From Gulosibacter sp. 10 (GTDB taxonomy: Bacteria > Actinomycetota > Actinomycetes > Actinomycetales > Microbacteriaceae): 64,000 bases of DNA. Every line of letters begins with the position of its first letter. The first letter of the stretch is position 1. The position numbers and the translations under genes were made by a program. The stretch spans positions 62,001 through 126,000 of the forward strand of contig NZ_FUIC01000024.1 in NCBI RefSeq assembly GCF_900163695.1, given 5' to 3'. A model generated the notes under the pieces. It saw only the letters and a list, made by a program, of their open reading frames with translations. It did no database searches and was not told the origin of the DNA. Shown in pieces: positions 42,059 through 59,343 of the stretch.

Positions 42059-42345
42059 CTGCGACGGCTCCTATGGTGCGGATGCGGACTGCGGAGGATG
42101 CGGATGGCGGTCGGTCGCCGGTCCTCCGACGAGTCTAGTCGCTCGGGGCGCGGCCGCCGCGGTGCAGGTCGGGCGCGGATTCGGGCTTCCGGAGCCGGTT
42201 TCGGGGCGGATGGCGGCGCGGCGTCGCATGCGTGGATGCGGGAGCCATGCGTCCCGGAGGTGGTGGGGTGCGGACACGGATCCGGGAGCCGGCGAGGTGC
42301 GTCCTCGAGGAGGGGACTGCGGGGATGCGGGTGCGCGGCGGCGCG

Positions 42346-42404
42346 ATTGGGGTGGATAGCTGGAGGGGACCGTATATGTGGATGGTTCGGCTATTCGCCC
42401 CGAG
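42346..42404. repeat. Palindromic element family B, copy 2
   Basis: ATTGGGGTGGATAGC pairs imperfectly with GGCTATTCGCCCCGA; the centre is ACCGTATATGTGGATGGTTC. Confidence 0.75.
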
Positions 42405-42519
42405 AGCGGTCGCGCGCAAGGGCGGGGTGCGTTCCGGAACCGGAGGGATGTGTTCCGGAGACGGCTGCGGGAGCCGCACGTCCCCGAAGGCGGCGGGGTG
42501 CTTGGCGGGTGGCGGCGCG

Positions 42520-42577
42520 ATTGGGGTGGATAACCCGTGGGAACCGTATATGTGGATGGTTCGGCTATCCGTCCCGA
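42520..42577. repeat. Palindromic element family B, copy 3
   Basis: ATTGGGGTGGATAACC and GGCTATCCGTCCCGA arms around the same ACCGTATATGTGGATGGTTC centre. Confidence 0.75.
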
Positions 42578-42609
42578 GAATGGTGGCACGCAGGGCTGGT
42601 GGCGGCCCC

Positions 42610-42668
42610 AATTGGGACGGATGGCCGGTGGGGACCGTATATGTGGATGGTTCGGCTATCCGCCCGAG
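42610..42668. repeat. Palindromic element family B, copy 4
   Basis: ATTGGGACGGATGGCC and GGCTATCCGCCCGA arms around the same ACCGTATATGTGGATGGTTC centre. Arm changes at matching positions keep the fold. Confidence 0.75.
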
Positions 42669-42696
42669 AATGGCTGCGCGCAAGGGCCGCGGCGGA

Positions 42697-43347
42697 TCAG
42701 GAGGTGCCGGTGATGCCGGCGTAGACGGCCTCGCCCGTCGACACCTCGTACAGCAGGCGCACGCCCTCGACGCGGAACTGCTCCTCCTCGGAGGCCTCGC
42801 AGCCCGCGTCGCCGCACTCGGCCTTCGACGCATCCATCACGATGGGCTGCACCTCGACGAACTGGCCGTCGGGCTGCCCGGCGATCACGTCCTGCCAGGC
42901 CGGCCAGGACTGGCTGTCCGGGGTGATGTGCTCGAACTCGAGCACCTGGCCCTCGAGCACCGTGAACTGGTAGACCGCCTCGCCGTCGGCGACGGCGTCC
43001 CAATCGGCCGCCTCGAACTGGTCCTGCTCGGGAGAGATGCACCAGTTCTCGCATTCGATCGTGAGGTCGTTGACGGCGAGGGTCACGAGGTCCTCATAGT
43101 CATCGGGGAGGTCGCCGGGCGCGGGCTCGCCGGAGGGCTCCTCGGAGGCGTCGGCCGCGGCGTCCTCCGCGGCGGTATCGCCGGTGTCGGCGGTCTCCTG
43201 CGTCGGTGCGGTATCGGCGGCCGCATCCGAGTCGGAGGTGAGCGGGGCGCTCTCTACCGGCTCGGCGTCGCCGGCGCATCCGGCGAGGGCGAGCGAGGCG
43301 GCCGCGAGCAGGCTCAGCGGCAGGAGGCGTGTGCGGATCGTATTCAT
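42697..43347 (-). CDS. Secreted lipoprotein with four-Cys domain
   Basis: 216 residues. The signal peptide ends in lipobox LALAGC. An acidic Asp/Glu/Ala/Thr linker (about 25-90) follows, then a domain with ECENWCISPEQDQFEAADW and, near the end, KAECGDAGCEAS. The C-terminal domain resembles that of the lipoprotein at 54318-55448 in its NWC...FEAADW motif and second Cys pair. Unknown function; expected on the outer face of the membrane. Confidence 0.75.
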   Translation of the reverse strand: MNTIRTRLLPLSLLAAASLALAGCAGDAEPVESAPLTSDSDAAADTAPTQETADTGDTAAEDAAADASEEPSGEPAPGDLPDDYEDLVTLAVNDLTIECENWCISPEQDQFEAADWDAVADGEAVYQFTVLEGQVLEFEHITPDSQSWPAWQDVIAGQPDGQFVEVQPIVMDASKAECGDAGCEASEEEQFRVEGVRLLYEVSTGEAVYAGITGTS

Positions 43348-43964
43348 GGTGGATCACCTGTTTCGTCCGTCCCGCCGGCCGCTTCGCCGACGGGACGCCA
43401 GTATGCGGCGCGGGCCTTGAAGCCGCCTCCGCCCGAGCGGATGATTCCCCGAGTGCCATGCCGGTGCAAGGCATCCTGACACGCAGCCTCTCCTCGGCGG
43501 ATTCCCGGCAGGCGCCTCTCCCGGCGGCAGGCGCATTCGAGGATCGACGCAGCGGTGAGGTGGGGATACGACGAAGCTGGGAAACGTGCATCGGGAGCAA
43601 GTACGTCGTGGCCGTATGCAGAACGGCCCAGACAGAAACGGCCTGGGACAAAGCCGGTCACGTGCAGAACGGGTCGGCGAACAGGACGAGGCAGCGTGCG
43701 CCGAAGCAGAGTCGGCCAGGTGTGGGCGGCCGGAGGCGGAGAGAGCCCGGGTGAAGGCTGGGCCAGGACGGAGCAGGTCAGGAGCGGAGCCGGCCAGGCG
43801 CTGAGTGGCTCGAGGCAGGACGGGGCGGGCCAGAGCGCGCCGGGCCAGAGCGCGCCGGGCCAGAGCATCCCGGGCCAGAGCATCCCGGGTCAGAGACCCC
43901 GAGGCTGCGCGCACCAGGACGGACACGGCCGCGCCCGGCCGAGAAGGCGGCCGCCGCCCCGCCT
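43348..43964. other. Intergenic stretch with a 15-bp tandem repeat
   Basis: No gene supported. GGGCCAGAGCGCGCC-type units of 15 bp repeat about five times at 43827-43900. Open frames here read the repeat as ALARR or GQSAP runs and are rejected. Confidence 0.55.
43827..43900. repeat. 15-bp tandem repeat
   Basis: About five copies of GGGCCAGAGC followed by GCGCC or ATCCC. Confidence 0.8.
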
Positions 43965-43981
43965 CTCATCCGCGCCTCATC
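43965..43981 (+). promoter_or_regulatory. 11-bp spaced direct repeat before the two-component operon
   Basis: CTCATC at 43965 and 43976 are exactly 11 bp apart, about 25 bp before the first gene. The same hexamer, with the same spacing and orientation, occurs upstream of the genes starting at 50998 and 54192. Spacing of one helical turn suits an OmpR/PhoB-type regulator. Confidence 0.55.
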
Positions 43982-44003
43982 CGGCGCGGGCAGACTGAAC
44001 GCC

Positions 44004-44441
44004 GTGAACGGACGACTCCGAGGCCCGGCGACCCGCGGCACCCCGTGGGTGCGGCTGGGCGCGCTCATCGCCGCGGGCATCGCGGCGGTCGTCATCGTGG
44101 TCGCGCTGGCGCTCGGCCTCGCGAGCGCGACCCCGGGCACCGTGAACCTCGGCCCCCTCGTGGGCGAGAACGACGGGCCGATCGGCGGATCGGCGACCGG
44201 GGCGCCGCAGCCGACCGACCCCGAGGGCACCGAGTCGCCCGAGCCCACGCAGCCGGAGGATCCGACCGAGACCATCCCGCCCACGGAAGGCGACGGGGAC
44301 GCGGCGGCCGACGGGGAGCGCGAGAATCCCGTGACGGTGCCCGGGCCCGGCGTGCAGCTGCCGCAGCCGGAGCCGGAGCGCCACGAGGACGGCGACGATG
44401 ACGACGACGGCGATGACGACGGAGACGACGATGACGACTGA
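44004..44441 (+). CDS. Small membrane protein with Asp-rich tail
   Basis: 145 residues, GTG start. One membrane helix (about 18-42) is followed by a Pro/Glu/Thr-rich outer segment and a tail of almost only Asp (DGDDDDDGDDDGDDDDD). It ends 9 bp before the sensor kinase gene and should be made with it. No family recognised. An acidic, possibly metal-binding extracytoplasmic tail beside a sensor kinase suggests an accessory sensing protein. Speculative. Confidence 0.6.
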   Translation: MNGRLRGPATRGTPWVRLGALIAAGIAAVVIVVALALGLASATPGTVNLGPLVGENDGPIGGSATGAPQPTDPEGTESPEPTQPEDPTETIPPTEGDGDAAADGERENPVTVPGPGVQLPQPEPERHEDGDDDDDGDDDGDDDDD

Positions 44442-44450
44442 GCCGAGGTC

Positions 44451-45953
44451 GTGAGCGCGGCATCGCCTCCCCGCCGCCGGGCCCGCGCCTGGCGGCGGTT
44501 CACCGTGCGCAGCAGGATGATCTTCGTCCTGGTCGCGCTCACGCTGCTCGCCATCGCGATCTCCGGCGTCGTCTCCTACGCGCTGCAGCGCAACGCGACC
44601 CAGGCGCGCATCGACCAGGAGCTCATCCGCGGCGTCGAGGAGGTGCGCATCCTCGCGCAGGAGGGGGTCATGCCCGAGACGGGCGAGCCTTTCGTCGAAT
44701 CCGAGGACCTCGTCTACGTGGCCATGCAGCGCCACTGGCCCGGCCAGCACGAGTCGATGCTCGGCCTCGACGCCGCGGGCATCGCCGTCTACCCGCACAG
44801 CAGCGTGCCGCTGCGGCTCGAGGACGACCCGCAGCTCGTGGCGGCGCTGCAGCAGGAGGCGAGCCCCGGCGCCTTCCTCGAGGATGTCGAGATCCGCACC
44901 ATCGCCACCGACATCACCACCTACCGGGCCGTGCTCATCCCTGTCCACTTCGCGCAGGACGCCGAGCCGAGCCTGCTCGTCTTCGCGATCGACTACGGCG
45001 AGACCCTGCGCGAGCTCGACGGCATCTTCCTCACCTACGCGCTCACAGGCCTGGGCGTGGCCCTCGTCATCGCCCTGCTCGGCTCGATCATCATCGGCCG
45101 GCAGCTCGCCCCGCTGCGAGCGCTGCAGTCCACGGCCGCGGAGATCTCGGATGCGGATCTCGAGCGCCGCGTGCCGGTCACGAGCGCGGACGACATCGCG
45201 GAGCTCTCGCTGACCTTCAACGAGATGCTCGACCGCATCCAGGCGGCGTTCCGCTCGCAGCGGCAGCTGCTCGACGATGTCGGGCACGAGCTCCGCACGC
45301 CCATCACGATCGTGCAGGGCAACCTCGAGCTGCTGAACCCCCGCGACCCGGCCGAGGTGGAGCAGGTGCGCGAGATCTCGCTCGACGAGCTGGAGCGCGT
45401 GAACCGCCTCATCGAGGACCTCATGACCCTCGCGAAGGCCGAACGGCCGGACTTCGTCTCGCCCGCGCCGCTCGACCTCGAGACCTTCACGAGCGAGGTC
45501 GCCGACAAGGCGGCTCGGCTGGGCGACCGCGAATGGTCGGTGGCGGAGTCGGCGCGGATCGTGCACGATCTCGACAGCCAGCGCATCACCCAGGCCTGGC
45601 TGCAGCTCGCGGGCAACGCGGTGAAGTACTCCGAGCCCGGATCGCCCATCTCGCTCGGATCGCGCGTGGTGCCGGGACTCGAACCGACGCTCGAGCTGTG
45701 GGTGCGGGATGCGGGCATCGGCATCGCCGAGGGCGACCGCGACCGCATCTTCGAGCGGTTCGGACGCGGCGGCAACGCCACGCGCGCCGAGGGCACCGGG
45801 CTCGGCCTGAACATCGTCGTCGAGATCGTGCGCGCCCACGGCGGCTCGGTGGGCGTCGACTCCGAGCCGGGCTCCGGTTCGACCTTTACGATGAGCTTCC
45901 CGCTCGGCGCTCGCGGCCGGGCGGCTCCCGCCGCGACCCGAGGAGCGACATGA
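44451..45953 (+). CDS. Sensor histidine kinase
   Basis: 500 residues, GTG start. Two membrane helices (about 21-46 and 195-217) flank an extracytoplasmic sensor segment of about 150 residues. A HAMP domain (RQLAPLRALQSTAAEISDADLERRV), the phosphoacceptor His in DVGHELRTPI (about 276) and ATPase motifs NAVKYS, DAGIGI and GTGLGLNIV follow. Its stop overlaps the response regulator start, so the pair is a coupled two-component system. The stimulus is unknown. Confidence 0.93.
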   Translation: MSAASPPRRRARAWRRFTVRSRMIFVLVALTLLAIAISGVVSYALQRNATQARIDQELIRGVEEVRILAQEGVMPETGEPFVESEDLVYVAMQRHWPGQHESMLGLDAAGIAVYPHSSVPLRLEDDPQLVAALQQEASPGAFLEDVEIRTIATDITTYRAVLIPVHFAQDAEPSLLVFAIDYGETLRELDGIFLTYALTGLGVALVIALLGSIIIGRQLAPLRALQSTAAEISDADLERRVPVTSADDIAELSLTFNEMLDRIQAAFRSQRQLLDDVGHELRTPITIVQGNLELLNPRDPAEVEQVREISLDELERVNRLIEDLMTLAKAERPDFVSPAPLDLETFTSEVADKAARLGDREWSVAESARIVHDLDSQRITQAWLQLAGNAVKYSEPGSPISLGSRVVPGLEPTLELWVRDAGIGIAEGDRDRIFERFGRGGNATRAEGTGLGLNIVVEIVRAHGGSVGVDSEPGSGSTFTMSFPLGARGRAAPAATRGAT

Positions 45954-46639
45954 CGCAGATCCTGATCATCGAGGACGAGCCCCGCATCACCGATTTCATC
46001 TCGAAGGGGCTCGCGATGGAGGGCTTCGAGTCCACCTCGGCAGCGAGCGGCGCGGAGGGGCTCGGGCTCGCGCTCTCGGGGCGGTTCGCGCTCGTGATCC
46101 TCGACCTCGGGCTGCCCGACATGGACGGGTTCCAGGTGCTCCGGAAGATCCGCGCGGTGGACGAGCAGCTGCCGGTGATCATCCTCACGGCGCGCACCTC
46201 GAGCACCGACACCGTCGCCGGCCTCACCTCCGGCGCCGACGACTACGTGCCCAAGCCCTTCCGCTTCCCGGAGCTCGTGGCGCGGGTGCGGCTGCGGCTC
46301 CGGTCTGCGGCGGCGCAGGAGCCCGAACCCGAGGAGGAGGCGCTGCGGCACGGCGACCTCGTGCTCGACCCGGTGCGGCATCTCGTGACCATCGGCGACC
46401 GCGTCGTGGATCTCTCGGCGCGCGAGTTCGACCTGGCGGAGATGTTCCTGCGCAATCCGGGTCAGGCGCTCACCCGCGACCAGCTGCTCGCGAACGTGTG
46501 GGGTTATGACTTCGATGCGGCCTCGAACGTGGTCGACGTATACGTGCGCTACCTCCGCAACAAGCTCGGCGCATCGAGGTTCGAGACGGTGCGCGGCGTC
46601 GGCTACCGGCTCGTGGAGGAGCGGCGATACCTGGGGTAG
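45950..46639 (+). CDS. Response regulator, OmpR/PhoB family
   Basis: 229 residues. The receiver domain has acidic pocket EDE, phospho-Asp in VILDLGLPDMDG (about 51), switch Thr in LTART and Lys in VPKPF. The C-terminal winged helix has LSAREFDLAEMFLRNPGQALTRDQLL and the YVRYLRNKLG recognition helix. OmpR-type proteins bind direct repeats about 11 bp apart. Such repeats occur before its own operon and before two nearby operons, which makes them candidate targets. Confidence 0.94.
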   Translation: MTQILIIEDEPRITDFISKGLAMEGFESTSAASGAEGLGLALSGRFALVILDLGLPDMDGFQVLRKIRAVDEQLPVIILTARTSSTDTVAGLTSGADDYVPKPFRFPELVARVRLRLRSAAAQEPEPEEEALRHGDLVLDPVRHLVTIGDRVVDLSAREFDLAEMFLRNPGQALTRDQLLANVWGYDFDAASNVVDVYVRYLRNKLGASRFETVRGVGYRLVEERRYLG

Positions 46640-47837
46640 CCGCCCGCGCGGGGCTCGTTCCGGTGCCGGGTGGGGCTCACCGCCTGCGGCGGTGCCGTCG
46701 CTGGGATCGAGCGGAGCGGGGCAGGCGCCGGAAGCGATCGGGCCGGCTCGCGTTTCGCGGATGCGCCGCGGTCCGCGTCGAATAAGAGCGTGTCCCCGTG
46801 TTCGTGCGGATATGAGTGCGGCGTTGGACGCGGGCGCGAATGTGGAGGAGACGCCGTGTCCGTGCCCGGATGCGAGACCTGTGCGCGGATGCGAGGGGCC
46901 CGTGCGCGGATGCGAGGGAAACGTCGTGATCGGATGCGGATGTGAGGGAAACGTCGTGATCGGGCGCGGATGTGAGGGAGATGCCCGGTTTGCGTGTTGC
47001 TTTCCGTGTATGAGTCTCATATCCGCGAAGGGCTGTTGTCGCAGTCGAGGACTCATCGTGGATGTGAGGGATATGCGGGTTTTGGCCCGGATGTGAGGAA
47101 GATGCTGCAGCCGGGTTCGGAGGTGAGGAAGATGCTGAAGCCGGGTTCGGATGTGCGGGAGATGCTGCAGCCGGGCGCGGATGTGAGCGATATGTCGGGT
47201 TTGCGCGCCGTATTTCGGTGATATGTCTCATATCCGCGGAGTCTGCTCGGGATGGGGGAACCTGCGCAGACGGCAGACGGCAGACGGCAGACGGCAGACG
47301 GCAGACGGCAGACGGCAGACGGCAGACGGCAGACGGCAGACGGCAGACGGTCGGCGCCGCATCGCAGAGATTGATCGTGAGGCGGCCTTGTGCGGGACCT
47401 CGACCGGATGCGAAGGATATGCAGGGCAGGGCAGGGCAGGGCAGTGCCGGGATGTGAGGGATATGCCGTGATCCATGGCTGATGTGAGACCGATGACGGG
47501 TTTGCGCGTCGCATACCTGGGATATGCCTCATATCGCGCAGAATCCTCATATCGCGCAGAATCCTCATATCCGCGGAAGCGCCTATCTCGGAATCAGAAA
47601 CGGATGGTGCGGGTTCGGATGCGGGTTCGGGCTCAAGTGCGGGCACGGGAACGTTGACGGACCGGGCGCGCGCGGCTCACCACCTGCGGCGGTGGAAGCG
47701 GCTCACCGTCTGCGCTAACGGATGCGCCTCGCCGTCTGCAGCAGCGGGCACAGCTCCTCGCGGGAGGTAGGGCGGCGCCGTCGCCGGGATCGAGCGGAGC
47801 GGCCCGGCCGCCGGGAGCGATCGAGCCGGCTTGCGAC
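46640..47837. other. 1.2-kb intergenic stretch with several tandem repeats
   Basis: No gene supported. 46890-46985 holds three imperfect copies of GGATGTGAGGGAAACGTCGTG. 47085-47200 holds about three copies of a roughly 33-bp unit (GATGTGAGGAAGATGCTGCA plus GCCGGGTTCG). 47266-47349 is a 7-bp repeat. CTCATATCGCGCAGAATC is doubled near 47528-47570. Frames across it are repeat-derived. Confidence 0.6.
47266..47349. repeat. 7-bp tandem repeat (GCAGACG)
   Basis: Twelve exact head-to-tail copies of GCAGACG in non-coding DNA. Confidence 0.95.
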
Positions 47838-49877
47838 TCACTCGTCCTCCGCATCCTCGCCCGCGATGCGGCCGCGACCCGTTACGGCGACCGGCTCGAG
47901 CCCGTCGCCGTCGAGATCCCATTCGCGGTAGTCCGCGAGGACGCGATCCGGGTGCCGCGAGGCGAGCACGACCACGCCCGGGTAGCCGGCGAGCAGCTCG
48001 CGCAGCCGATCCAGACCAGGGGCGTCGAGCCCCGAATCCAGGTGCTCGAGCACGAGCAGGGGAGGCGTGCCGAGCAGCGCCCTCGCGAGCTTGAGCTTCG
48101 CGACGTCCACGCCGCTCCACGGGGCGCCGTCGTTCTTCAGCGTCGTCCGGAGCTCGCGATCCGAGAGCACACCGAGCCCCACCCGCTGCAGCAGCCAGCG
48201 CACCTGACCGGTCAGCGCATCCGGATTCCGGTAGGCCGCGAGCCGCCGCACGGACCCCCGCTCGAGCGGGAGCAGCTGCGAGGCGAAGCCCACGAGCGCG
48301 CGCCGCCGCCGGGCCGGGACCTCCGCGAGATCCACGCCGCCGAGCCGCACGCCGCGAGGCCGCGGATCCGGCTCGACGGTCGGCCCGCCGAACGGGTGGG
48401 GGCTCCGGAACGTCTCGGTGCCGTGAATCCTCTTGCCCGTCCCGTCCCGGGGGATCCTGCTCGCGTCCGCGTCATCGATCCACGGGGCGGAGCCGGCTTC
48501 ATCCGTCCCGCTCCCGGTGATCCCATTCGTGCCCGAGTCGCCGATGCGAGGTGCGGCGTCGGCTTCGCCATCGGGAATCCCGCTCGCGTCCGCATCGTGG
48601 AGTCGAGGCGTGGCGGCAGCCCCGCTCCCGAGCCTCCCGCTCGCACCCGTGCCGTCGACCCGCGGAGCCGCGGCCTCGCCGTCCGGCTCTTCGCCGGCCC
48701 CCGTCGCCGCGGCCTCGCCCGCGAGCAGGGCCCGGATCGCCGCGCGCTCGTGCTCCGGATGCGCCGAGCGCAGCAGGATGCGCTCGCCCGGCCGCGCGAC
48801 CAGGGCGGGCAGCTCCACGCCGCTCGCACGGATCCCGACCGCGCTGAGCTCCGCGGGGCCGGCCTCGGGCATCGGGGCATCCCGCCAGCGCCGCTCGCGC
48901 CTGCGCTCCTCCCGGATGCGCTGCCGCGCCTCGGCGAGCAGCGGCGCGAGGATGCGCCGGGCCGCCCGGTAGTTCTGCCGGTACTCGACCACCCTGCCGA
49001 GGTCGGCGAGCGGCGCGGCCAGCACGCCGAGCAGCGTCATCGCCGACGCCGCCTGCGCCACCCCGATCCCGCCGCCCGCCGCGAGCACGACCACCGCGAC
49101 CGTGCCCAGCGAGGCCGCCGTGACGGTGATTGCGCGCACGAGCCCCGTGGCCCACGCGCGCCGCACCGCGGCATCCACCACCCTGCCCGAGTGCCGGTCG
49201 ACGGCGTTGAGCTCCCGCCGCACGGCGCCCGACGCCCGCACCGACTCGCCCGCGCGCACGGTGTCGGCGATGTGCGCCGACATGCGCCCGCGCAGGCGCC
49301 GGAGCTCGCGGGCGCGGCGGTGCACGCTGCGCGACAGCCCGGGCAGGGCCGCGGCCATGCCGAGCAGCGGCAGCGCGACCGCGGCCGCGAGGAGCGGATT
49401 CGTCAGAGCCAGCGCGCCGAGGACGATGCCGATGAGCGGCAGCGCGGTGACGAGGGGCACGACGCCCTGCGCGATCCAGTTGCGCACGGCCGTCAGGTCG
49501 TTCGACGCCCGCGTCACGACCACCCCGAGGGAGGGGTTGCCGACGCCGTCGAGCGAGGCCGCGACGAGCAGTCGCCGCTGCTCGGCGACGTAGTCTTGCC
49601 CCAGCCGCTCCGCCACGACCCGCTCGAGCCAGCGCGCCGCGCCGATGCCGAGCGCCGAGGCGAGGATGCCGAGCGCCCCGGCCCCGAGCGGGCCCGACGC
49701 CCCGGCCGCCGACGCCCCGGCGCCGGAGAGCAGCCCGTCCACGCCCAGGGCGAGGCACAGCGCGAGCACCGCCTGCAGCACGCCCAGCCCGGCCAGGCAG
49801 AGGAGCAGCGCGCGGCGCCGCCCGCGCCACACCGGCGGCATCGAGGGCGCCTCCGAGCGGGCGACGGCCCGGGTCAT
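47838..49877 (-). CDS. Degenerate ABC exporter (membrane plus ATPase-like domain)
   Basis: 679 residues. The N-terminal half (about 20-310) is a six-helix exporter domain. The ATPase half is worn: RPGERILLRSAHPEHERAAI stands where Walker A should be, WSGVDVAKLKLARALL replaces LSGGQ, and LLVLEHLDSGLD is a changed Walker B. A roughly 110-residue insert (about 395-505) is made of imperfect repeats around PRLHDADASGIP and PWIDDADASRIP. ATP hydrolysis is doubtful unless a partner supplies a second site. It overlaps the P-loop gene upstream by 4 bp. Confidence 0.75.
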   Translation of the reverse strand: MTRAVARSEAPSMPPVWRGRRRALLLCLAGLGVLQAVLALCLALGVDGLLSGAGASAAGASGPLGAGALGILASALGIGAARWLERVVAERLGQDYVAEQRRLLVAASLDGVGNPSLGVVVTRASNDLTAVRNWIAQGVVPLVTALPLIGIVLGALALTNPLLAAAVALPLLGMAAALPGLSRSVHRRARELRRLRGRMSAHIADTVRAGESVRASGAVRRELNAVDRHSGRVVDAAVRRAWATGLVRAITVTAASLGTVAVVVLAAGGGIGVAQAASAMTLLGVLAAPLADLGRVVEYRQNYRAARRILAPLLAEARQRIREERRRERRWRDAPMPEAGPAELSAVGIRASGVELPALVARPGERILLRSAHPEHERAAIRALLAGEAAATGAGEEPDGEAAAPRVDGTGASGRLGSGAAATPRLHDADASGIPDGEADAAPRIGDSGTNGITGSGTDEAGSAPWIDDADASRIPRDGTGKRIHGTETFRSPHPFGGPTVEPDPRPRGVRLGGVDLAEVPARRRRALVGFASQLLPLERGSVRRLAAYRNPDALTGQVRWLLQRVGLGVLSDRELRTTLKNDGAPWSGVDVAKLKLARALLGTPPLLVLEHLDSGLDAPGLDRLRELLAGYPGVVVLASRHPDRVLADYREWDLDGDGLEPVAVTGRGRIAGEDAEDE

Positions 49878-50998
49878 CGGTCCGCGGGGCCGCGGCCGGC
49901 GAGGACGCGCTCGGCGACCTCGGGCAGCGCGAGCTCGTAGGTGCCGAGCACTTCCGCGCCCTGATCGAGCAGCACCGCCCCGGCCTCGGCCGAGGCGAGG
50001 GGCGAGGAGGTCATCACGCCGGTGGCGGCCGCGACTTCGAGCCCCGCCGAGCGGAGCTCCTGCACGCCGGCGCGGGCGCCCAGCGCATCCGAGGCCGCGA
50101 ACAGCACCCGGTCCACGGTGCGCTGGAAGCGGCCGTCGCGCAGCAGCGCCGCGGTCTCCTCCTGGAAGACGCCGTCGGCGATCTCCACGACGATCGCGTC
50201 CGGCCGCGAGGCCGAGAGCTTCGCGACGAGGTTCGCGGTGAGCGCGCGGATCGAGGGCATGTCGAGCCGGAACGTGGTGGCGTAGCCGAAGTCGGTGAAG
50301 TCGAGCACCTCGGCCGCGCCGGCGTCGCCGTAGATCATCGGATCGTTGCCGGCCCCGGTGCCGGTGATCTTCGCCGCGCCCACCGTCCGTCCGGACTTCA
50401 CGAGCCCGTTGATGAGGCAGGCCATGGCGGTGGACTTGCCGGAGTTCATCGAGGTGCCGAGCACGCCGATCACCGCGGGGCGCTCGACCCGCAGGGTCGC
50501 GGGATCGTTCCGCAGCGGGGCGAAGCGCCGCAGGTTCACGACGCCCCGCGCGTCGGCGAGGAGCCCGAGCGGCTCGATCTCCGTCGGCGCCGACACCCGG
50601 TCGTGGGCCGCGACGACGCGGCCGGCCACGCCCCCGGCGGCGACCATGTGACAGGGCTCGAGGCCGCCGGGCACGTGCGCGAGGAACTGGTCGGCCGCGT
50701 ACCGGTGCCCGTAGGCGAGCATCACGAGCGCGCCCTCGAAGAGGATCGCCTTGCGCGACTCCGGTGTCTCGATGCGCTTGTGGCTGCCGATGCGGCCGAT
50801 GCGGGCGACGACGACATCGCCGGGGCGGGGGTGCAGCCCCGCACCCGAGCGCAGGTGGAAGGCCGCGCGGTCGGTGTGCACGGCGGCAGCCACGAACCTG
50901 GTCGTGTAGGCGGCCTGGATGCGCCCCGGCAGCGGCGCGGACACGGCGTCGGCCTCGGCACGGGTGGCGGATGCGGGGGAGAGCAGCGCGGTGGTCAT
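49874..50998 (-). CDS. P-loop NTPase of unknown function
   Basis: 374 residues, start at 50998 with AAAGG upstream. The N-terminal half (about 20-165) is a beta-rich domain with GDVVVARIGRIGSHKRIE. The C-terminal half has Walker A GTSMNSGKST (about 190), then GAAKITGTGAGNDP and DFTDFGYATTF, followed by VVEIADGVFQEETAALL. The P-loop half recalls DUF1611 and MobB-type proteins. It is translationally coupled to the degenerate ABC exporter and preceded by three 11-bp-spaced repeats. Its substrate is not evident. Confidence 0.7.
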   Translation of the reverse strand: MTTALLSPASATRAEADAVSAPLPGRIQAAYTTRFVAAAVHTDRAAFHLRSGAGLHPRPGDVVVARIGRIGSHKRIETPESRKAILFEGALVMLAYGHRYAADQFLAHVPGGLEPCHMVAAGGVAGRVVAAHDRVSAPTEIEPLGLLADARGVVNLRRFAPLRNDPATLRVERPAVIGVLGTSMNSGKSTAMACLINGLVKSGRTVGAAKITGTGAGNDPMIYGDAGAAEVLDFTDFGYATTFRLDMPSIRALTANLVAKLSASRPDAIVVEIADGVFQEETAALLRDGRFQRTVDRVLFAASDALGARAGVQELRSAGLEVAAATGVMTSSPLASAEAGAVLLDQGAEVLGTYELALPEVAERVLAGRGPADR

Positions 50999-51049
50999 GA
51001 TGATCGCCTTTCGGAGTTCGGAACGATTGCTCGCAGTGAACCCCGGCGC

Positions 51050-51077
51050 GATGAGGCGGCGATGAGGTGCGGATGAG
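51050..51077 (-). promoter_or_regulatory. Three 11-bp spaced direct repeats before the P-loop/ABC operon
   Basis: GATGAG on the plus strand (CTCATC on the coding strand) at 51050, 51061 and 51072, exactly 11 bp apart, 52 bp from the start at 50998. Confidence 0.7.
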
Positions 51078-51084
51078 ACCGCTC

Positions 51085-52146
51085 TCATGAACCCCGCACG
51101 AGCGGCCGCTCGACGGGGAAGTACGGCAGGTACGACAGTCCGGAGACGTTGTAGGGGAACTTGATGCCCATGATGGCGCGGATGCCGGCGTGCATCGACC
51201 ACGCGGCGAGGGCGAACAGCCTGCCCGCCCCTCGGTGGAGCAGCGAGATCGGCGCGCCGAGCTCGATCGCGAGGGCGCCGGCCGCGAGCACGCCGAACTG
51301 GGCCCTGCTGCGGTAGAGCGCGCCCGCGAGCCGCGGGGCCTCGACGCCGAAGCGCTCCTTGCGCACCGCGTCGGCCGCGATCTGCTCGCGCAGCACGTCG
51401 CCGCTCGCCCAGCCGAACCCCTTCGGGCTGCGCACCTTCGCGACGCCCGAGATGAGGTAGACCGACGTCGTGGCGAGGTTCATCGCGGTCGCGACGGCGC
51501 CGTACTCCCGGCCCTCGCGCCGGGGCAGGAGCGCGCCGTCGCGCAGCAGGGCGTCGACCGAGAGCGCATCAGCCGATCGGGTCGCGCCGAGCACCGCCTG
51601 ATGCAGCACGAGCATGTTGTCGTTGTGGAGCACCATGCCCCAGGAGTTGCGATAGGCGAGCGTCCAGAGCTGCAGCGCGGCGTTGAGCGGGCCGGTGACC
51701 CGATGCGCGACGCCCAGCGCGGCGAGCAGGTTCGCGACCTGCGCGGCGTCGAAGAGCAGGTCGGCGATGCGCGGGGGCAGCGGGGCGCGCAGGACGCGCA
51801 CGACCCCGACCGGGGCGAAGCGCGAGGCGTCCTGCCGGTGCAGCGCGCGCATCATCCGCCGGCGCCGGAGGTTGTGCGCCGCCGAGTAGCCGTGCGCCGC
51901 GATCCGCAGCACGGCGGGGCGGGCGGCGTGGGCGCGAGGGCGGAGCAGGTCGAGGACGTGCTCGCCGAGGCCGGATCGCGCGGAGGCGGCTCCCCGGCGC
52001 TCGGCGTGCGCGGACCGCCGGCGGGCGGGGTCGCCGACGCCCGCGGATCCGACCGCGGCAGGCTCTCGGCCGCGGCCGCTCTCGAGGCGCCGCGCGGCGT
52101 GGCCGCCGTTGGGGCGCCCGGTGAGCGCGCTGAGGAGGCGGCTCAT
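51085..52146 (-). CDS. HTTM domain membrane protein
   Basis: 353 residues. The ATG at 52146 overlaps the stop of the gene before; longer starts run into that gene. After a basic N-terminal 80 residues come several helices with DAAQVANLLAALG, YRNSWGMVLHNDNMLVLHQ and NLATTSVYLISGVAKV. These are typical of the HTTM family (vitamin K carboxylase-like membrane proteins, which also includes SdpB). Function unknown. It is part of the operon with the FAD oxidoreductase and the 191-residue protein. Confidence 0.82.
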   Translation of the reverse strand: MSRLLSALTGRPNGGHAARRLESGRGREPAAVGSAGVGDPARRRSAHAERRGAASARSGLGEHVLDLLRPRAHAARPAVLRIAAHGYSAAHNLRRRRMMRALHRQDASRFAPVGVVRVLRAPLPPRIADLLFDAAQVANLLAALGVAHRVTGPLNAALQLWTLAYRNSWGMVLHNDNMLVLHQAVLGATRSADALSVDALLRDGALLPRREGREYGAVATAMNLATTSVYLISGVAKVRSPKGFGWASGDVLREQIAADAVRKERFGVEAPRLAGALYRSRAQFGVLAAGALAIELGAPISLLHRGAGRLFALAAWSMHAGIRAIMGIKFPYNVSGLSYLPYFPVERPLVRGS

Positions 52147-52718
52147 GCGAACGCCCGCTTCGAGAGCCGGCTCGGCGGATGCGCGAAGGCGATGCCGCCC
52201 ACGGGGCATTCCGCGCGGATGGACTCGGCGTCGGGGAGGCGGCGCCCGGCGAAGTAGTCCTCGAACACGAACCGGGAGCGCACGACGGCGACGGTGACGA
52301 TCGCCGCCTCGTCCGCGGAGGCGGCGCCCGCGGCCTCCGCCGCCCGCGCCTGCGAGTCGGCCAGCGAGTCCGCGTAGCGCTGGGCGACCTCGGCGGCCCG
52401 GCCGCGGCGCAGCGCGCGGGCCACCTGCTTGCGCACCTGGTTCAGCCCGCCCGATCCGTAGTGCCGGTAGTGCGGGACCACCCGCTCGCCGTGCGCGGTG
52501 ACGCCGATGACGTGCGGCACCACCACCCGTCCCTTCCGGTCGACGGAGAACATGGGGTAGGTCGACAGCGGGAACGAGTCCCTCGCGAACTTCCGCTCGG
52601 CGACCTCGTCGAGCGGGCGGGCGTAGTGGCGCAGCGGCGAGAGCAGCGCGGCGGCGAACGCGAGGCCGAGGAGCAGGCCGCGCCGGTCGGCGCGGCGGGA
52701 TGACGGTCGGGCGGGCAT
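52143..52718 (-). CDS. HTTM-associated protein with one membrane helix
   Basis: 191 residues. A basic N-terminus and one helix (about 13-30) are followed by a soluble domain with DSFPLSTYPMFS (about 45-57), a motif often seen in proteins encoded next to HTTM genes. The gene overlaps the HTTM gene by 4 bp. A joint complex in the membrane is likely, but its job is unknown. Confidence 0.72.
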   Translation of the reverse strand: MPARPSSRRADRRGLLLGLAFAAALLSPLRHYARPLDEVAERKFARDSFPLSTYPMFSVDRKGRVVVPHVIGVTAHGERVVPHYRHYGSGGLNQVRKQVARALRRGRAAEVAQRYADSLADSQARAAEAAGAASADEAAIVTVAVVRSRFVFEDYFAGRRLPDAESIRAECPVGGIAFAHPPSRLSKRAFA

Positions 52719-52743
52719 GGATCCTCCTGGGAAGGGGCCGGCG

Positions 52744-54192
52744 TCAGGGCGCGTCGGCGAGCGCGGCGCGGGCGGCCCACGCGCCGGGCATGCCGTGCAC
52801 GCCGGCGCCGGGCGGGGTGGATGCCGAGGCGAGGTAGAGCCCCGGCCCGAGCCGGTACGGGTCGAGCGTCGGCCCGGGGCGCAGCAGCGCCTGCAGGCCG
52901 GTGGACGCCCCGCCCGCGACGTCGCCGCCGATGAGGTTCGGATCCCAGGCCTCGAGCGCGGCGGGCGGCGTCGCGTTGCGGAACACCACGGTGTCGCGGA
53001 AGCCCGGCGCGAAGCGCTCCAGCTGCCGCTCGACGAGGTCGATCACCTCGCCCTCGCGGGGCTCCTCGTAGCCGTGGGGCACGTGCGCGTAGGTCCACAC
53101 CACGTGGTAGCCGGTGCCGCCGGCGCGGCCCGGGTCGGCGACCTGCTGCTGGCCCACCATCACGAAGGGGCGGTCGGGCATCCTGCCCGCGGCGGCGAGC
53201 GCCTCCGCCCGCTCGAGCTCCCCGGGTCCGCCGATCACGTGCACCGTCGTGGCCTCGGCGCTGCGCGGATCGCTCCACGGGATCGGCTCGGCCAGGAGGT
53301 AGTCGATCTTGTAGACGCCGACGCCGTAGCGCCAGCGGCCGAGCCGCCTCGCGGTGCCGGCGCGGAGGCCGTCGATCGCCGGGCCGCGCAGCCGCAGCAC
53401 CTGCGCGGGTGTGAGGTTGAGCACCGTTGCGTCGGCGGCGGGCAGCTCGCGGAGATCCACGACCTCGACGCCCGTGCGGATGCGCCCGCCGTGCTCGTGC
53501 AGCACGGCGACCAGCGCATCCACGATCGCCTGCGAGCCGCCGCGGGCCACGGGCCATCCGCTCGTCTGCCCGAGCGCCCCGAAGAGGGCGCCGAAGGCGC
53601 CGGTGAAGGGATGCCCGAGCGGCGCGATCGCGTGCGCCGCGGAGCCGCCGAACAGCGCCCGGGCGGGGGCGCCCGCGAAGCAGCGGCGCGCGATCAGGCC
53701 CGCCGGCGCGAGCGCCGTCGGCGCGAACCGCGCGAGCCGGAGCGGATGCCGGGGGAGGCGCAGCATCGGCCCCAGCAGGTTCTCGAGCTGGGCGGGCATG
53801 TCCGCGGTGAGCGGCGAGTGGATGCGGCGCCATGCCCGCGCGTCGCGGCCCAGCTCGGCCGCCGTGTCCTCGAGGCCGCGGTGCAGCACCGCGGTCGGCC
53901 GGCCCGGCAGGGGGTGCGCGAGGGGGTACCGGGAGTGGCGCCACTCGAGCCCGTGCCGCTCGAGCTCCAGCTCGCGGAACACGGGGCTCGCGGCGCCGAA
54001 CGCGTGGCCGGCCGCGCCGAGGTCGACGACGGTTCCGGGACCGAGGGCGGCCGTCGAGCGGGCGGCGCCGCCGGGCAGCGCGTCGCGCTCGAAGACCTCC
54101 ACCCGCCATCCGGCGCGGGCGAGCAGGGCGGCGGCGGTGAGGCCGTTGGGCCCGGCGCCGACGACCACGGCGCTGCGGGGGTCGCTCGTCAT
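52744..54192 (-). CDS. FAD-dependent oxidoreductase, phytoene desaturase-like
   Basis: 482 residues, ATG at 54192 with GAGGAG upstream. The N-terminal dinucleotide motif VVVGAGPNGLTAAALLARAGWRV and the FERDALPGGAARS segment bind FAD. GGSQAIVDALVAVLHEHGGRI (about 260) and the C-terminal GPGLYLASASTPPGAGVHGMPG are marks of the NAD(P)/FAD (CrtI/retinol saturase-like) amine-oxidase group. No other carotenoid gene is near, so the substrate is open. First gene of the operon with the 191-residue and HTTM proteins, behind four 11-bp repeats. Confidence 0.88.
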   Translation of the reverse strand: MTSDPRSAVVVGAGPNGLTAAALLARAGWRVEVFERDALPGGAARSTAALGPGTVVDLGAAGHAFGAASPVFRELELERHGLEWRHSRYPLAHPLPGRPTAVLHRGLEDTAAELGRDARAWRRIHSPLTADMPAQLENLLGPMLRLPRHPLRLARFAPTALAPAGLIARRCFAGAPARALFGGSAAHAIAPLGHPFTGAFGALFGALGQTSGWPVARGGSQAIVDALVAVLHEHGGRIRTGVEVVDLRELPAADATVLNLTPAQVLRLRGPAIDGLRAGTARRLGRWRYGVGVYKIDYLLAEPIPWSDPRSAEATTVHVIGGPGELERAEALAAAGRMPDRPFVMVGQQQVADPGRAGGTGYHVVWTYAHVPHGYEEPREGEVIDLVERQLERFAPGFRDTVVFRNATPPAALEAWDPNLIGGDVAGGASTGLQALLRPGPTLDPYRLGPGLYLASASTPPGAGVHGMPGAWAARAALADAP

Positions 54193-54268
54193 GGCGTGCT
54201 CCTCATGCTGCGGGGGGTGCCGCCCGGGCGGGGCGGCATCGGGGGATGCCTCAACCCTGGGGGAGCGG

Positions 54269-54307
54269 GATGAGGCCGCGATGAGCCGCCTGTGAGAGTT
54301 CGATGAG
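54269..54307 (-). promoter_or_regulatory. Four 11-bp spaced direct repeats before the FAD/HTTM operon
   Basis: GATGAG at 54269 and 54280, TGTGAG at 54291 and GATGAG at 54302 on the plus strand: four hexamers exactly 11 bp apart, 77 bp upstream of 54192. Same word, spacing and orientation as before the gene at 50998. Confidence 0.72.
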
Positions 54308-54317
54308 ACGGGCCCGG

Positions 54318-55448
54318 TCACGCGGTGTTGCCCGCGACGCCGATCAGCTCGACGCGATCGTCGGCGATCGCGAAGAGGAACTGCACGGTGTCGACCACGA
54401 TCGGCAGCTCCGGATCGTTCGACTCGTGGCAGGTCGTGGACGAGCCGCCGTCCGAGCATTCGCTGGTCGAGTAGTTGATGGTGAGCGGGCTGACCTCGAC
54501 GAAGGCGTCCCACGCGTCCGGGCCGCCCGCCTCGTCGATATCGCTCTGCCAGTCGCCGTACCCGGACTCGTCGAGCAGGGGGACGAGATCGGCCCGGTCC
54601 TTCGCCGCGATCATGAAGATGCCGGTGTCCTCGCTCATGCCCGCCCAGTCGGCGGCCTCGAAGCGGTTCGGCTCGGGCTCGCTGCACCAGTTCGAGCAGC
54701 GCTCGTGGATGGCGTCGACCTCGTCCTGCACCAGTGCGGCGCCGGCCTCGGAGAGCTCGAGCGTCGCGCCCTCGATCCCGTCGGCCAGGGCGCTGTGGAT
54801 GCCCGAGGCGTCGCCCGGCGTGACCGGCACGGCGATCGGCTCGCCGGCGACGGCGAGCGCGGGGTTCGCCGCGACGAGCTCGAACTCGTGGGTGCCGGGG
54901 AGCGCGAGCGCCGCGGGGCCGGTGAGCGGATCGGAGCCGGCGGGGAGCGAGTCGTCTTCGGGCAGCAGCGCCTCCTCGGGGATGTCGAGCGCGAGCTCCC
55001 CGGCCTCGGGCGTGCGGAACGGCTGGGTCGCGTTCACGATCTCCCAGTGCGGCTCGCCGCCGTCGTACTCGACGTAGCGGACCACGGCCTGCCACTCCGC
55101 GGTGTCCTCGCCGATGGTGTGCGTCACGTCGATCACGCGGTACTTGTCGTCCGAGGGGCGCGGGTTCGGCTCCTCGCCGCCGATGATCTCGGCGAGCTCC
55201 GGCGCCGTGTCGGGCAGCAGCACGGAGTCCACGGGCACGTGCGGGCCGAGCAGCGTCTGCAGGGCCTCGGCGTCCTGCGAGGCGAGGGACTCGTAGAACT
55301 GCACGATCGCGCCGCGCGCCGTCATCCCGCCGGGGTGCTCCTCGTCCTCGGGCTCGGGGGTCGCGGCGCAGCCGGTCAGCAGGACGAGGCCCGCGAGCAG
55401 CAGCGCCAGCAGCCGGGCCGGCGCGGAGCGCCGCAGCGTCATGTGCAT
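54318..55448 (-). CDS. Secreted lipoprotein of unknown function
   Basis: 376 residues. Signal peptide with lipobox VLLTGC (about 20-25). An N-terminal region (about 40-130) with GAIVQFYESLASQDAEALQTLL resembles small SnoaL/NTF2-like folds. The C-terminal part has RCSNWCSEPEPNRFEAADW, then SECSDG and TTCHES, giving four Cys. This part matches the lipoprotein at 42697-43347. The stop is 11 bp from the direct-repeat block of the FAD operon. It lies 6 bp after the gene at 55455, so those two probably form an operon. Confidence 0.75.
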   Translation of the reverse strand: MHMTLRRSAPARLLALLLAGLVLLTGCAATPEPEDEEHPGGMTARGAIVQFYESLASQDAEALQTLLGPHVPVDSVLLPDTAPELAEIIGGEEPNPRPSDDKYRVIDVTHTIGEDTAEWQAVVRYVEYDGGEPHWEIVNATQPFRTPEAGELALDIPEEALLPEDDSLPAGSDPLTGPAALALPGTHEFELVAANPALAVAGEPIAVPVTPGDASGIHSALADGIEGATLELSEAGAALVQDEVDAIHERCSNWCSEPEPNRFEAADWAGMSEDTGIFMIAAKDRADLVPLLDESGYGDWQSDIDEAGGPDAWDAFVEVSPLTINYSTSECSDGGSSTTCHESNDPELPIVVDTVQFLFAIADDRVELIGVAGNTA

Positions 55449-55454
55449 CCTCGA

Positions 55455-56702
55455 TTACTCCGTGAACTCGATCGTCAGCAGCAGGCGGTCCCGGACGAAC
55501 CGCTCGAACTCCTGGTAGGTGATCCGGGGCTCCTCGCCGCCGGCCTCGTCGTTGCCGGCGAAGTGCAGCAGCAGCGCCGTGCCGTCCTCGTTGAAGACCC
55601 GCAGCGCCACGAACGCCGAGCGTTCCTCGGTGTCGAAGCGGTACACGGCGAACTCCACCGGCTCGACGCCGCCGTCGGGCAGGGCGACGTCGATGGTCAT
55701 CGGCGCGAGCTCGGTCACCGTGCCGTTCGCGCCCGACGCGAGGCCGAGCACCTCGAGCGCGGTCTGCTCCGTGACCTCCCCGTCGTCCGCCCCCTCGATC
55801 ATGGGGAAGGACGCGAGCTCGGCGCCCGTCTCGAACTCCCGGTCGGCGAAGTAGCCGTCGTTCGGCCTGCCGTAGTCCACCGAGAAGGTGTGGCTGAGCC
55901 CGTCGCTGTTCCAGACCTGCAGGTTGCTCGTGCCCTGCTGGTTGGCCTCCCAGCCCGGGGTGGTGCGGACATCGGCCTCGATGGACTCGACGCCGGTGCT
56001 GGCCCCGAGGTGGTAGCCCGGCTCCGGCGGCATGAAGAGCATGAAGGCGGTGATGCCGGCGCCCGCGATGAGCAGCACCGCGGCGGCCGACCAGGCGATG
56101 ACGCGCAGCCGCCGGCGCCGCCGCCTCGGCGAAGGGCCGGAGCTCGATGATCCGGAGCTCGATGATCCGGGGTTCGATGATCCGGGGCCGGACGAGCCCT
56201 CGGCCCCGGGGCGGGCCGTCGTCGAGGGACTTCCGGGGTCCGCCGGCGCCGAGCGTCCCGGTACCTGTCGCGTGGCTGCGTCGTGGTAGCCGGCCTGGTC
56301 GTACCCGGTCCGGTCGTGCCCGGCCGGGTCATGGCCGGTCCGGTCGTAGCCGGTGCCGGCCGATGCCGGGCGCGTCTGCGCGGCGTGCGTCGGGGCGGCG
56401 TCGCCCGGGGCGTGCCGCTCGGACAGCGGCGGCAGGTCGGGCATCGAGGATGCGGGCCGCTGCGCCGAGGGGGCGGTCTCGTCCGGTCCGCGCTCGGCGT
56501 CGCGATGGCCGTCCTGCGGCGCATCCGCGCCGTAGCCGCCGTCGTAGCTGTCGCCGCCGAACACGTACTGGCCCGGGTAGCGCTGCGGCGCGGAGGTATC
56601 GGGGATGGGCGGCAGGTCCTGCTGCCAGGGCGAGTTCGTGCCGGTCCAGGGCAGCGAGGAATCCCGGTCCTCGGATCCCTCGTCCTCCGGCTTGCCGCTC
56701 AC
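55455..56702 (-). CDS. Single-pass membrane protein with long disordered N-terminus
   Basis: 415 residues, GTG start. Residues 1-195 are low-complexity (Pro, Gly, Ser, Asp; repeats of GHDPAGHDRTGYDQAGYH type). They end in an Arg stretch RRRRRRLR and one membrane helix (about 200-221). The outer domain (about 225-415) has VWNSDGLSHTFSVDYGRPNDGYF. This layout is common in actinobacterial envelope proteins. Function unknown. Confidence 0.7.
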   Translation of the reverse strand: MSGKPEDEGSEDRDSSLPWTGTNSPWQQDLPPIPDTSAPQRYPGQYVFGGDSYDGGYGADAPQDGHRDAERGPDETAPSAQRPASSMPDLPPLSERHAPGDAAPTHAAQTRPASAGTGYDRTGHDPAGHDRTGYDQAGYHDAATRQVPGRSAPADPGSPSTTARPGAEGSSGPGSSNPGSSSSGSSSSGPSPRRRRRRLRVIAWSAAAVLLIAGAGITAFMLFMPPEPGYHLGASTGVESIEADVRTTPGWEANQQGTSNLQVWNSDGLSHTFSVDYGRPNDGYFADREFETGAELASFPMIEGADDGEVTEQTALEVLGLASGANGTVTELAPMTIDVALPDGGVEPVEFAVYRFDTEERSAFVALRVFNEDGTALLLHFAGNDEAGGEEPRITYQEFERFVRDRLLLTIEFTE

Positions 56703-56818
56703 GCCCCAACTGCTCCTTCGCGCCCTCGATTCGTGCGCCTCAGTCTAGGGGAGCGCCGCCCCGCGCGATTCAGCCGCGAGTTGCAACCGGCACGGTCCGG
56801 GCGGGGGAGAAGCGGCGG

Positions 56819-57250: not shown

Positions 57251-57279
57251 AGCCCCTCCAGCCTAGGCGAGCGCGGAGG

Positions 57280-58518: not shown

Positions 58519-58645
58519 CCCACCTCCTGCGTCACTCGTCTGAACGATCCTAGGGGCTGCCGAGGGCGCGACGATTCACCCGCTGCACAAGCGACGGCGG
58601 GTGGACTGGGCGACGGGTGAAACGGCGCTGCGGCGCGGGTCGGGG

Positions 58646-59341
<696 letters not shown>

Positions 59342-59343
59342 GA

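Follow-up and report, generated by a model that had tools for sequence, protein, structure and literature searches.

CTCAT repeats at 11-bp spacing as the probable operator of a conserved two-component regulon in Gulosibacter

Introduction

In a 64,000-nt stretch of the Gulosibacter sp. 10 genome (contig NZ_FUIC01000024.1, forward-strand positions 62,001 to 126,000; hereafter the window), short CTCAT words repeated every 11 bp stand in front of three operons. The first encodes a two-component system (TCS), the second a P-loop protein and an ABC-exporter-like protein, and the third an FAD-dependent oxidoreductase, a companion protein and a multi-pass membrane protein. Do these arrays form one operator, and which regulator would read it? 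A sequence-only reading of the window had proposed an uncharacterised regulon under the response regulator encoded in the operon behind the first array. We followed this proposal through the whole genome and into related genera, and conclude, with a probability of roughly three in four, that a local, conserved two-component regulon uses the arrays as its operator. The regulon itself is real, conserved and of a known general kind.

Results

Repeat arrays in the window

The TCS array (43965..43980, + strand) consists of two direct CTCAT units (43965-43969 and 43976-43980) with a period of 11 bp and reads CTCAT-ccgcgc-CTCAT on the coding strand from 43965. The P-loop array (51051..51077, − strand) has three direct units at 51077, 51066 and 51055 (CTCAT-ccgcac-CTCAT-cgccgc-CTCAT, coding strand, 51077 downwards), and the FAD array (54270..54307, − strand) has four, namely CTCAT, CTCAC, CTCAT and CTCAT at 54307, 54296, 54285 and 54274 (CTCAT-cgaact-CTCAC-aggcgg-CTCAT-cgcggc-CTCAT, coding strand, 54307 downwards). 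The sequence-only reading had described these elements by a six-base word, and its account of their positions was accurate: CTCATC-N5-CTCATC occurs exactly at 43965-43981 (+), at 51050-51066 and 51061-51077 (−, three overlapping words) and at 54269-54285 (−), one word of the FAD array is altered as claimed (CTCATC-N5-CTCACA-N5-CTCATC-N5-CTCATC, 54307..54269, −), and every array is oriented along the direction of its downstream gene.

The repeat is not frequent in coding DNA, a condition that the sequence-only reading had named as refuting its proposal. A genome-wide search found the exact pair five times in 3,651,988 bases (55 contigs); four of these matches are the only exact ones in the window, all within the three arrays, and the fifth (C11:65809) lies inside a coding frame resembling RpoA (G, C and L numbers are our handles for genomes, contigs and loci). 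This label, like PstS, alkaline phosphatase, RegX3/PhoP, PurL/PurQ, DUF3817 and EamA, is a reading of the translation made with no family search. At one mismatch the genome held 15 more sites, compared with 4 matches of the reversed control at ≤1 mismatch, and at ≤2 mismatches the window held 15 matches, against a shuffle mean of 7.7, with 3 of 100 shuffles reaching 15. The more permissive three-unit pattern YTCAY-N6-YTCAY-N6-YTCAY matched three times in the genome, always in the P-loop and FAD promoters, and its reversed control not at all. Elsewhere in the same genome, a TTCAT-N6-CTCAT sequence ~45 bp before a lipoprotein-like start (C16:55189-55205 of G000, the window's genome; 1500-1517 (−) of L010) is possibly a further, weak regulon site.

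A fixed promoter grammar

In relatives, the claimed 6-bp word CTCATC gave way to a shorter one. The conserved unit is the 5-bp CTCAT, and its sixth base is C in 73 of 150 units; these units come from 52 operators that we picked by eye for clear repeats, many of them from related genomes and not independent. Each CTCAT position carries 1.5 to 2 bits and the other counted positions ≤0.36 bits, so that the unit is CTCAT plus six free bases. Spacing is equally strict. Among sense-strand YTCAY pairs in 12 FAD promoters, 35 are spaced by 11 bp and 24 by 22 bp, and no other distance within 6-24 bp occurs; in 35 P-loop promoters the corresponding counts are 34 and 21, with ≤4 at any other distance. 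Antisense pairs at 11 bp number 2 and 6 in the two promoter sets. All 12 FAD promoters and 21 of the 35 P-loop promoters contain a strict run of two or more units; among the remaining 14, several have base-changed arrays.

Crucially, the arrays keep a constant distance to a −10-like element. The hexamer whose first base lies precisely 10 bp past the last unit has T as base 6 in 50 of the 52 operators, and hexamers with A2 and T6 were found at this offset in 36/52 operators but in ≤6/52 at every other offset from 0 to 29. In the window, the hexamers are CAGACT for the TCS (43991..43996, +; 7 bp before the GTG start), TTCACT for the P-loop gene (51035..51040, −) and CAGGGT for the FAD gene (54254..54259, −), each 10 bp past the last unit. 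T6 was also present in all 19 further operators (seven of them from Corynebacterium), and A2 with T6 in nine, although these added operators weigh less because their register and last unit were set by eye with the rule already known. Given the fixed distance, we read the array as a putative activator site that replaces the −35 element; PHO boxes, too, lie ~10 bp from the −10. Furthermore, in 16 of the 18 TCS operators of the 52-operator set, only 6 or 7 bases separate the hexamer from a start codon, which predicts a leaderless TCS transcript.

Some of these operators begin with a unit in the opposite orientation. In the 52-operator set, an inverted RTGAR unit 11 bp before the first direct unit was present in all 14 P-loop operators and all seven DUF4956 operators (described below; the gene itself was looked at in all of them but L144) and was rare elsewhere (1/13 FAD and 2/18 TCS operators). 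The 19 added operators had it in 10 of 11 P-loop cases (not in L079), in 3/7 TCS cases and in the one secreted-protein operator. In the window, this unit is ATGAG (51084..51088, −), 11 bp before the first direct unit of the P-loop promoter, where it shares bases with the stop codon of the gene before it; in L023 the upstream gene ends ~80 bp earlier.

Number and position of units also vary at TCS promoters. Two Gulosibacter genomes (L045, L046) have two CTCAT pairs 32 bp apart, and a Micrococcus sp. (L140) has a second downstream pair as well; the single pair of the window resembles the downstream one.

Conservation in Gulosibacter, Micrococcaceae and Corynebacterium

The sequence-only reading had suggested checking whether relatives keep the repeats beside the same genes. 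In Gulosibacter, Micrococcaceae and Corynebacterium, they do so in register at the majority of orthologous promoters (genera are placed in families from general knowledge). Together with their rarity in the genome, this bears out the proposal that these genes form an uncharacterised regulon under a common operator. Of 11 Gulosibacter genomes, 7 have the P-loop gene, that of the window among them. All six relatives keep the block order FAD, companion, membrane protein, P-loop, ABC (the contig of L026 ends within the ABC gene), and all six have an array at the FAD promoter, with four units in five genomes and three in one. The P-loop promoter has a clear array in the window, in Gulosibacter chungangensis (G002, contig C18, NZ_WBKB01000006), in G006 and in G009, and a degenerate one in G003.

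Outside the genus, a P-loop alignment search of named genomes returned 34 loci, all from Gulosibacter, Micrococcaceae or Corynebacterium save one Hyphomicrobiales metagenome-assembled genome (MAG). Yaniella, Enteractinococcus and the Micrococcaceae MAG KG10 have four units at the FAD promoter and a separate array at the P-loop promoter; Citricoccus, Micrococcus terreus and Kocuria have an array at the P-loop promoter, and in two Citricoccus genomes the FAD gene is located elsewhere with four units upstream. Corynebacterium shares this layout, built from TTCAC/TTCAT/CTCAC/CTCAT units, at four of the five P-loop genes with upstream sequence and at all three TCS promoters. A scan for three CTCAT units with one mismatch allowed matched in 15 of 20 such genomes, while the reversed control gave 0 matches in every one.

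In relatives, the operator also precedes other genes. A DUF4956 membrane protein (PF16316; 6e-57 in L150, 1e-57 in L116) is encoded near the TCS, except in L116 and L117, where its gene lies elsewhere in the genome; the assignment is by Pfam in L150 and L116 and by likeness in L143, L146, L151 and L117. Its operator has three direct units behind an inverted one, and the central direct unit is altered to CTACT, CTTCT or CTCCT. At the three loci followed further downstream (L143, L146, L150), the next gene encodes a VTC-like protein (by Pfam in L146, PF09359, 6e-28). We found no DUF4956 match in the window's genome.

Several side observations concern such additional genes. The DUF4956-like/VTC-like pair under this operator type occurs in Arthrobacter sp. 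MYb229, Enteractinococcus and Yaniella (L143, L146, L150). Candidate targets seen in one or two genomes each are a beta-solenoid-like secreted protein (L110, L115; Pfam below cut-off), an L-asparaginase II (L136), a GT28-like protein (L135) and a HAMP-domain kinase-like protein (L112, L113).

The two-component system and its Asp-tailed partner

The first gene of the TCS operon (44004..44441, +) encodes a 145-aa Asp-tailed protein that is probably membrane-anchored, as judged by eye. It is followed in the same operon by a sensor histidine kinase (44451..45953, +; HAMP, HisKA and HATPase_c), whose phosphoacceptor H279 is invariant in an alignment of 26 homologues, and by the response regulator proposed to bind the arrays (45950..46639, +). 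The earlier assignment of this regulator to the OmpR/PhoB type was confirmed by Pfam, which matched both a receiver domain (PF00072 Response_reg, 7e-27) and a winged-helix domain (PF00486 Trans_reg_C, 1e-24). Among the NCBIfam matches listed, neither kinase nor regulator passed a curated cut-off, and the named candidates fell short: the CztR/CopR heavy-metal regulator (TIGR01387) scored 198.5 bits (cut-off 279.2), CseB (NF041733) 190.3 bits (cut-off 350) and MtrA (NF040689) 188.2 bits (cut-off 300). The recognition-helix stretch SNVVDVY is identical in 28 of 28 aligned regulators and therefore has no discriminating power.

The Asp-tailed gene accompanies the TCS closely. It adjoins the kinase or regulator gene at all 8 Gulosibacter loci, the window included, and at all 20 Micrococcaceae/Corynebacterium loci, where an Asp tail was called from ≥11 D among the 30 C-terminal residues or from a D6, DDWDD or DDEWDD motif. 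A strict CTCAT pair lies upstream of the Asp-tailed gene at 14 of these 20 loci, and variant pairs at the other six. In G003, G005, G007, G008 and G009, a more distant regulator homologue (58-63% identity) is encoded convergently to the Asp-tailed gene, which has its own CTCAT pair in G007 and G008, genomes with an unlinked TCS, and visible variant repeats in G003 and G005; no repeat was seen upstream of that of G009. The regulator (E≤1e-50) also tracks the P-loop gene: the two co-occur in all seven Gulosibacter genomes with the P-loop gene, and the regulator is present in one of the four genomes without it (G005). A literature search, within the library and wording used, returned no description of a CTCAT operator, of regulator binding to it or of an Asp-tailed TCS partner. 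The mixed inverted/direct operator and the Asp-tailed partner are the two unusual features of this regulon.

The regulators of these loci are largely related. In a 56-row tree, whose bootstrap is not fully settled, 24 of the 28 regulators of Asp-tail loci, from Gulosibacter and Micrococcaceae with Kocuria apart, form one group (94/95). Within it, the regulators of the window, G002 and G006, genomes that encode one such protein each at E≤1e-50, fall inside a Micrococcus/Citricoccus group (9 rows, 99/99), and the other five Gulosibacter regulators form a separate group (5 rows, 96/96). The P-loop tree is different: 24 Micrococcaceae/Corynebacterium rows (95/95) exclude all Gulosibacter rows and Kocuria, and the P-loop protein of the window, unlike its regulator, lies outside the Micrococcus/Citricoccus group. 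The simplest reading of these single-gene trees is that a Micrococcaceae-type TCS displaced an older TCS and may now read the same operators.

Array and regulator across the wider Microbacteriaceae

Our proposal that the local TCS reads the arrays has to be weighed against a number of results, most of them from the rest of the family. In a sample of 150 Microbacteriaceae genomes, the regulator was matched (E≤1e-70) in at least 32, with at most 19 candidates scored per genome, and a three-unit array was found in 29 (reversed control: 5). Six genomes had both, with ~6 expected by chance, and hence there was no association. Array loci outside Gulosibacter mostly break the −10 rule, with 5 of 28 fitting it, namely the FAD site of G008 and four loci before similar secreted proteins. 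In other genera of the Microbacteriaceae, nine of 20 regulator loci include an Asp-tailed gene and two include a strict array. CTCAT repeats are thus used by other systems as well, and regulator, Asp-tailed gene and array are firmly coupled in Gulosibacter, Micrococcaceae and Corynebacterium but not family-wide. No array was found at the P-loop promoters of G007 and G008, a YTCAY scan of the L085 P-loop promoter returned zero units, and none was seen by eye at the second P-loop copy of L065 (Corynebacterium). The two exceptions to the −10 rule among the 52 operators are the Asp-tail sites of G007 and G008, and the hand-picked, partly related make-up of this set limits what its counts can carry. 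The Kocuria regulator (on a long branch) and three Corynebacterium regulators, all from loci with arrays, fall outside the 24-row group; this, and the registration of the 19 added operators by eye, lowered our confidence. Finally, OmpR/PhoB-family sites are described as direct repeats without exception (PMC4832192), which leaves the inverted unit unexplained.

The survey also yielded observations on other array loci. Four other Microbacteriaceae (L217, L218, L220, L233) have a three-unit array and a placed −10 before similar secreted proteins that begin MK.ST..I..... or MNISRKIV..., preceded by an inverted unit, ATGAG in L218 and L220 and ATAAG in L217 and L233; in G085 (L244), the secreted-protein gene adjoins the regulator. 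Two small Microbacteriaceae genomes (L209 in G125, L210 in G055) have CTCATAG-type 11-bp repeats before a different response-regulator-like gene; the −10 is missing at the fixed distance there, and the repeats may belong to a further autoregulated system. Among 299 genomes of the family, an exact run of three CTCATC words occurred in G000 and G110 only; the G110 site was set aside as unrelated because it lies before an acetyl-CoA-synthetase-like gene (a reading of the translation) and breaks the −10 rule (L226).

Alternative explanations

Repetition by chance, or as an artefact of codon usage, can hardly account for the arrays. The genome is GC-rich and weak matches to the repeat are common; the rarity of the arrays in the genome, their strict 11-bp spacing, the fixed −10 offset and the in-register conservation before orthologues all argue against it. 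A more serious contender is the phosphate regulon, in which the arrays would be PHO boxes read by the PhoP/RegX3-type regulator of this genome. The PHO boxes of Streptomyces (GTTCACC) and E. coli (CTGTCAT) likewise repeat every 11 bp in direct orientation (PMC4415409), as does the PolR site GTTCACnnnnnGTTCaC (PMC6754071). The TTCAC units of Corynebacterium resemble PHO-box words, and the VTC and DUF4956 genes in the regulon of relatives hint at polymer or phosphate links. The same genome, however, has GTTCAC-type repeats with one or two mismatches before its PstS-like (L173), alkaline-phosphatase-like (L166) and RegX3/PhoP-like (L174) genes, none of which has an exact CTCATC pair, and the TCS with a CTCAT array in its promoter is a different one. 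These three PHO-type sites are readings rather than proofs, as the pattern is loosely common (158 matches at ≤2 mismatches; reversed control 48). The arrays are unlikely to be PHO boxes, and control by the Pho regulator would seem to us quite improbable.

Two further explanations keep a regulator of the OmpR type. If another such protein encoded elsewhere in the genome read the arrays, the TCS would merely be one more target. OmpR-type regulators are numerous, similar CTCAT repeats in another context precede an unrelated regulator gene (L209, L210), and regulator and array do not co-occur in the 150-genome family sample; yet Asp-tailed gene, kinase and regulator stay linked, with an array at most loci, through rearrangement and across families, and the regulators of 24 of 28 such loci share one tree group, with Kocuria and Corynebacterium outside. 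We regard a distant reader as improbable, only slightly more plausible than Pho control. Repression by the local regulator stands a little higher, though it, too, is unlikely. The array covers the −35 position and could block polymerase there. A fixed 10-bp distance to the −10 (50/52 and 19/19) is needed by an activator that touches sigma and not by a repressor, the array would take the place of a −35, and one array lies at the promoter of the TCS itself, where positive feedback is common. On balance, we infer from the sequence that the 45950-46639 product binds the arrays and that it activates its targets.

Discussion

A model of the regulon

Local activation of this kind could work as follows. 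Probably under the influence of the membrane-anchored Asp-tailed protein, the sensor kinase (44451-45953) would phosphorylate the regulator (45950-46639), whose molecules would align head to tail along one face of the helix, one per CTCAT unit. As the array ends 10 bp before the −10, it may stand in for the −35 element, with the regulator recruiting RNA polymerase. In this way, the regulator would switch on its own operon from a leaderless transcript, the P-loop/ABC operon and the FAD/companion/membrane-protein operon, with differing strengths perhaps set by the number of units and the leading inverted unit. Precedents in the family fit such an arrangement: OmpR/PhoB-type regulators bind direct repeats as tandem dimers, which makes a regulator of this type a suitable reader of 11-bp repeats; PhoP sites are direct repeats of 7+4 bp with a period of strictly 11 bp, and arrays of three or four units are bound more tightly (PMC4832192); and PhoB sites overlap the −35 (PMC3348028). 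As for the signal, an extracytoplasmic cation or cationic compound is our guess, prompted by the polyaspartate tail of the partner and by the VTC and DUF4956 genes found in the regulon of relatives.

A bolder interpretation, which we put forward tentatively and consider doubtful as a whole, is that the locus represents an undescribed three-protein actinobacterial signalling system, in which an extracellular, membrane-anchored polyaspartate tail belongs to the sensor, a gauge of cations or cationic peptides, the promoter grammar is fixed, and a Micrococcaceae-type regulator was exchanged in without a change of grammar. If this is true, the OmpR/PhoB family would gain a new operator type in the mixed inverted/direct array, with a proposed grammar of an inverted unit, two to four direct units at one per helical turn, 10 bp and a −10.

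Already under the main model, P-loop, degenerate ABC, FAD, membrane, Asp-tailed and DUF4956/VTC genes of unassigned function come together in one testable regulon. Gulosibacter, Micrococcaceae and Corynebacterium share it, and its promoter rule is sufficiently strict for further members to be sought computationally. The Asp-tailed protein is a candidate accessory sensor, and the system a possible case of a regulator displaced by a foreign homologue while the target sites stayed unchanged.

Target and neighbouring genes

Apart from the TCS operon itself, the proposed targets in the window are encoded on the − strand. The second operon comprises the P-loop protein (49874..50998; GTSMNSGKST), which is at best weakly MobB/dethiobiotin-synthetase-like, and the ABC-exporter-like protein (47838..49877; PF00664) with a degenerate nucleotide-binding half. 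CydDC identity of the latter was rejected: the CydC and CydD models matched below cut-off, CydC with 77.6 bits (cut-off 329), and no Walker A was seen by eye. In the third operon, the FAD-dependent oxidoreductase (52744..54192) is phytoene desaturase/CrtO-like, the companion protein (52143..52718) has no assigned family and the multi-pass membrane protein (51085..52209) has no family match. The last had been labelled HTTM, which could not be confirmed, as no Pfam or NCBIfam model matched; whether these libraries contain an HTTM model is uncertain. Profiles of the P-loop and HTTM-like proteins gave weak or irrelevant matches only against solved structures.

Paralogous lipoprotein-like genes with a common C-terminal ...NWC..P....F.AADW... 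(42697-43347 and 54318-55448, both −) bracket the regulon block, and a relative of one of them adjoins purL in L023, L024, L027 and L045. The block as a whole (39749-59400) lies between purL- and purQ-like genes; purL and/or purQ matches flank it in the stretches of five of six relatives and were not seen in L025. A short tandem repeat at 47223-47471 translates as RRQTADG in one frame and, from the opposite strand, as VCRLPSA.

Comparison with known systems

The closest formal parallels are other OmpR/PhoB-type regulons. The PHO-box promoters of PhoB in E. coli and PhoP in Streptomyces share 11-bp direct-repeat units, a regulator of the same type and an array over the −35; here, by contrast, the word is CTCAT, the regulator and targets are others, a leading inverted unit is present and separate PHO-type repeats exist in the same genome. 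M. tuberculosis PhoP, which binds two TCACAGC words with a 4-bp spacer, likewise requires a strict direct repeat of one helical turn and allows higher-order arrays (PMC4832192), but differs in word, regulon and partner protein. PolS-PolR of Microlunatus resembles the present system in its 17-bp pair, with N5 between 6-bp words, and in its poly-P related targets (PMC6754071), while the word and the targets themselves differ; its site was called highly similar to the Streptomyces PhoP site in the same source. MprAB of C. glutamicum is, like the system described here, an actinobacterial TCS with positive autoregulation. Its TKTTAAGAAM motif differs from the CTCAT word, so that we discarded an MprA-like motif as a candidate, and the part of the report available to us mentions no Asp-tailed partner (PMC12113857). 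CztRS/CopRS/CseBC/MtrAB-type TCS models are the best NCBIfam matches of kinase and regulator, those listed lying below the curated cut-offs.

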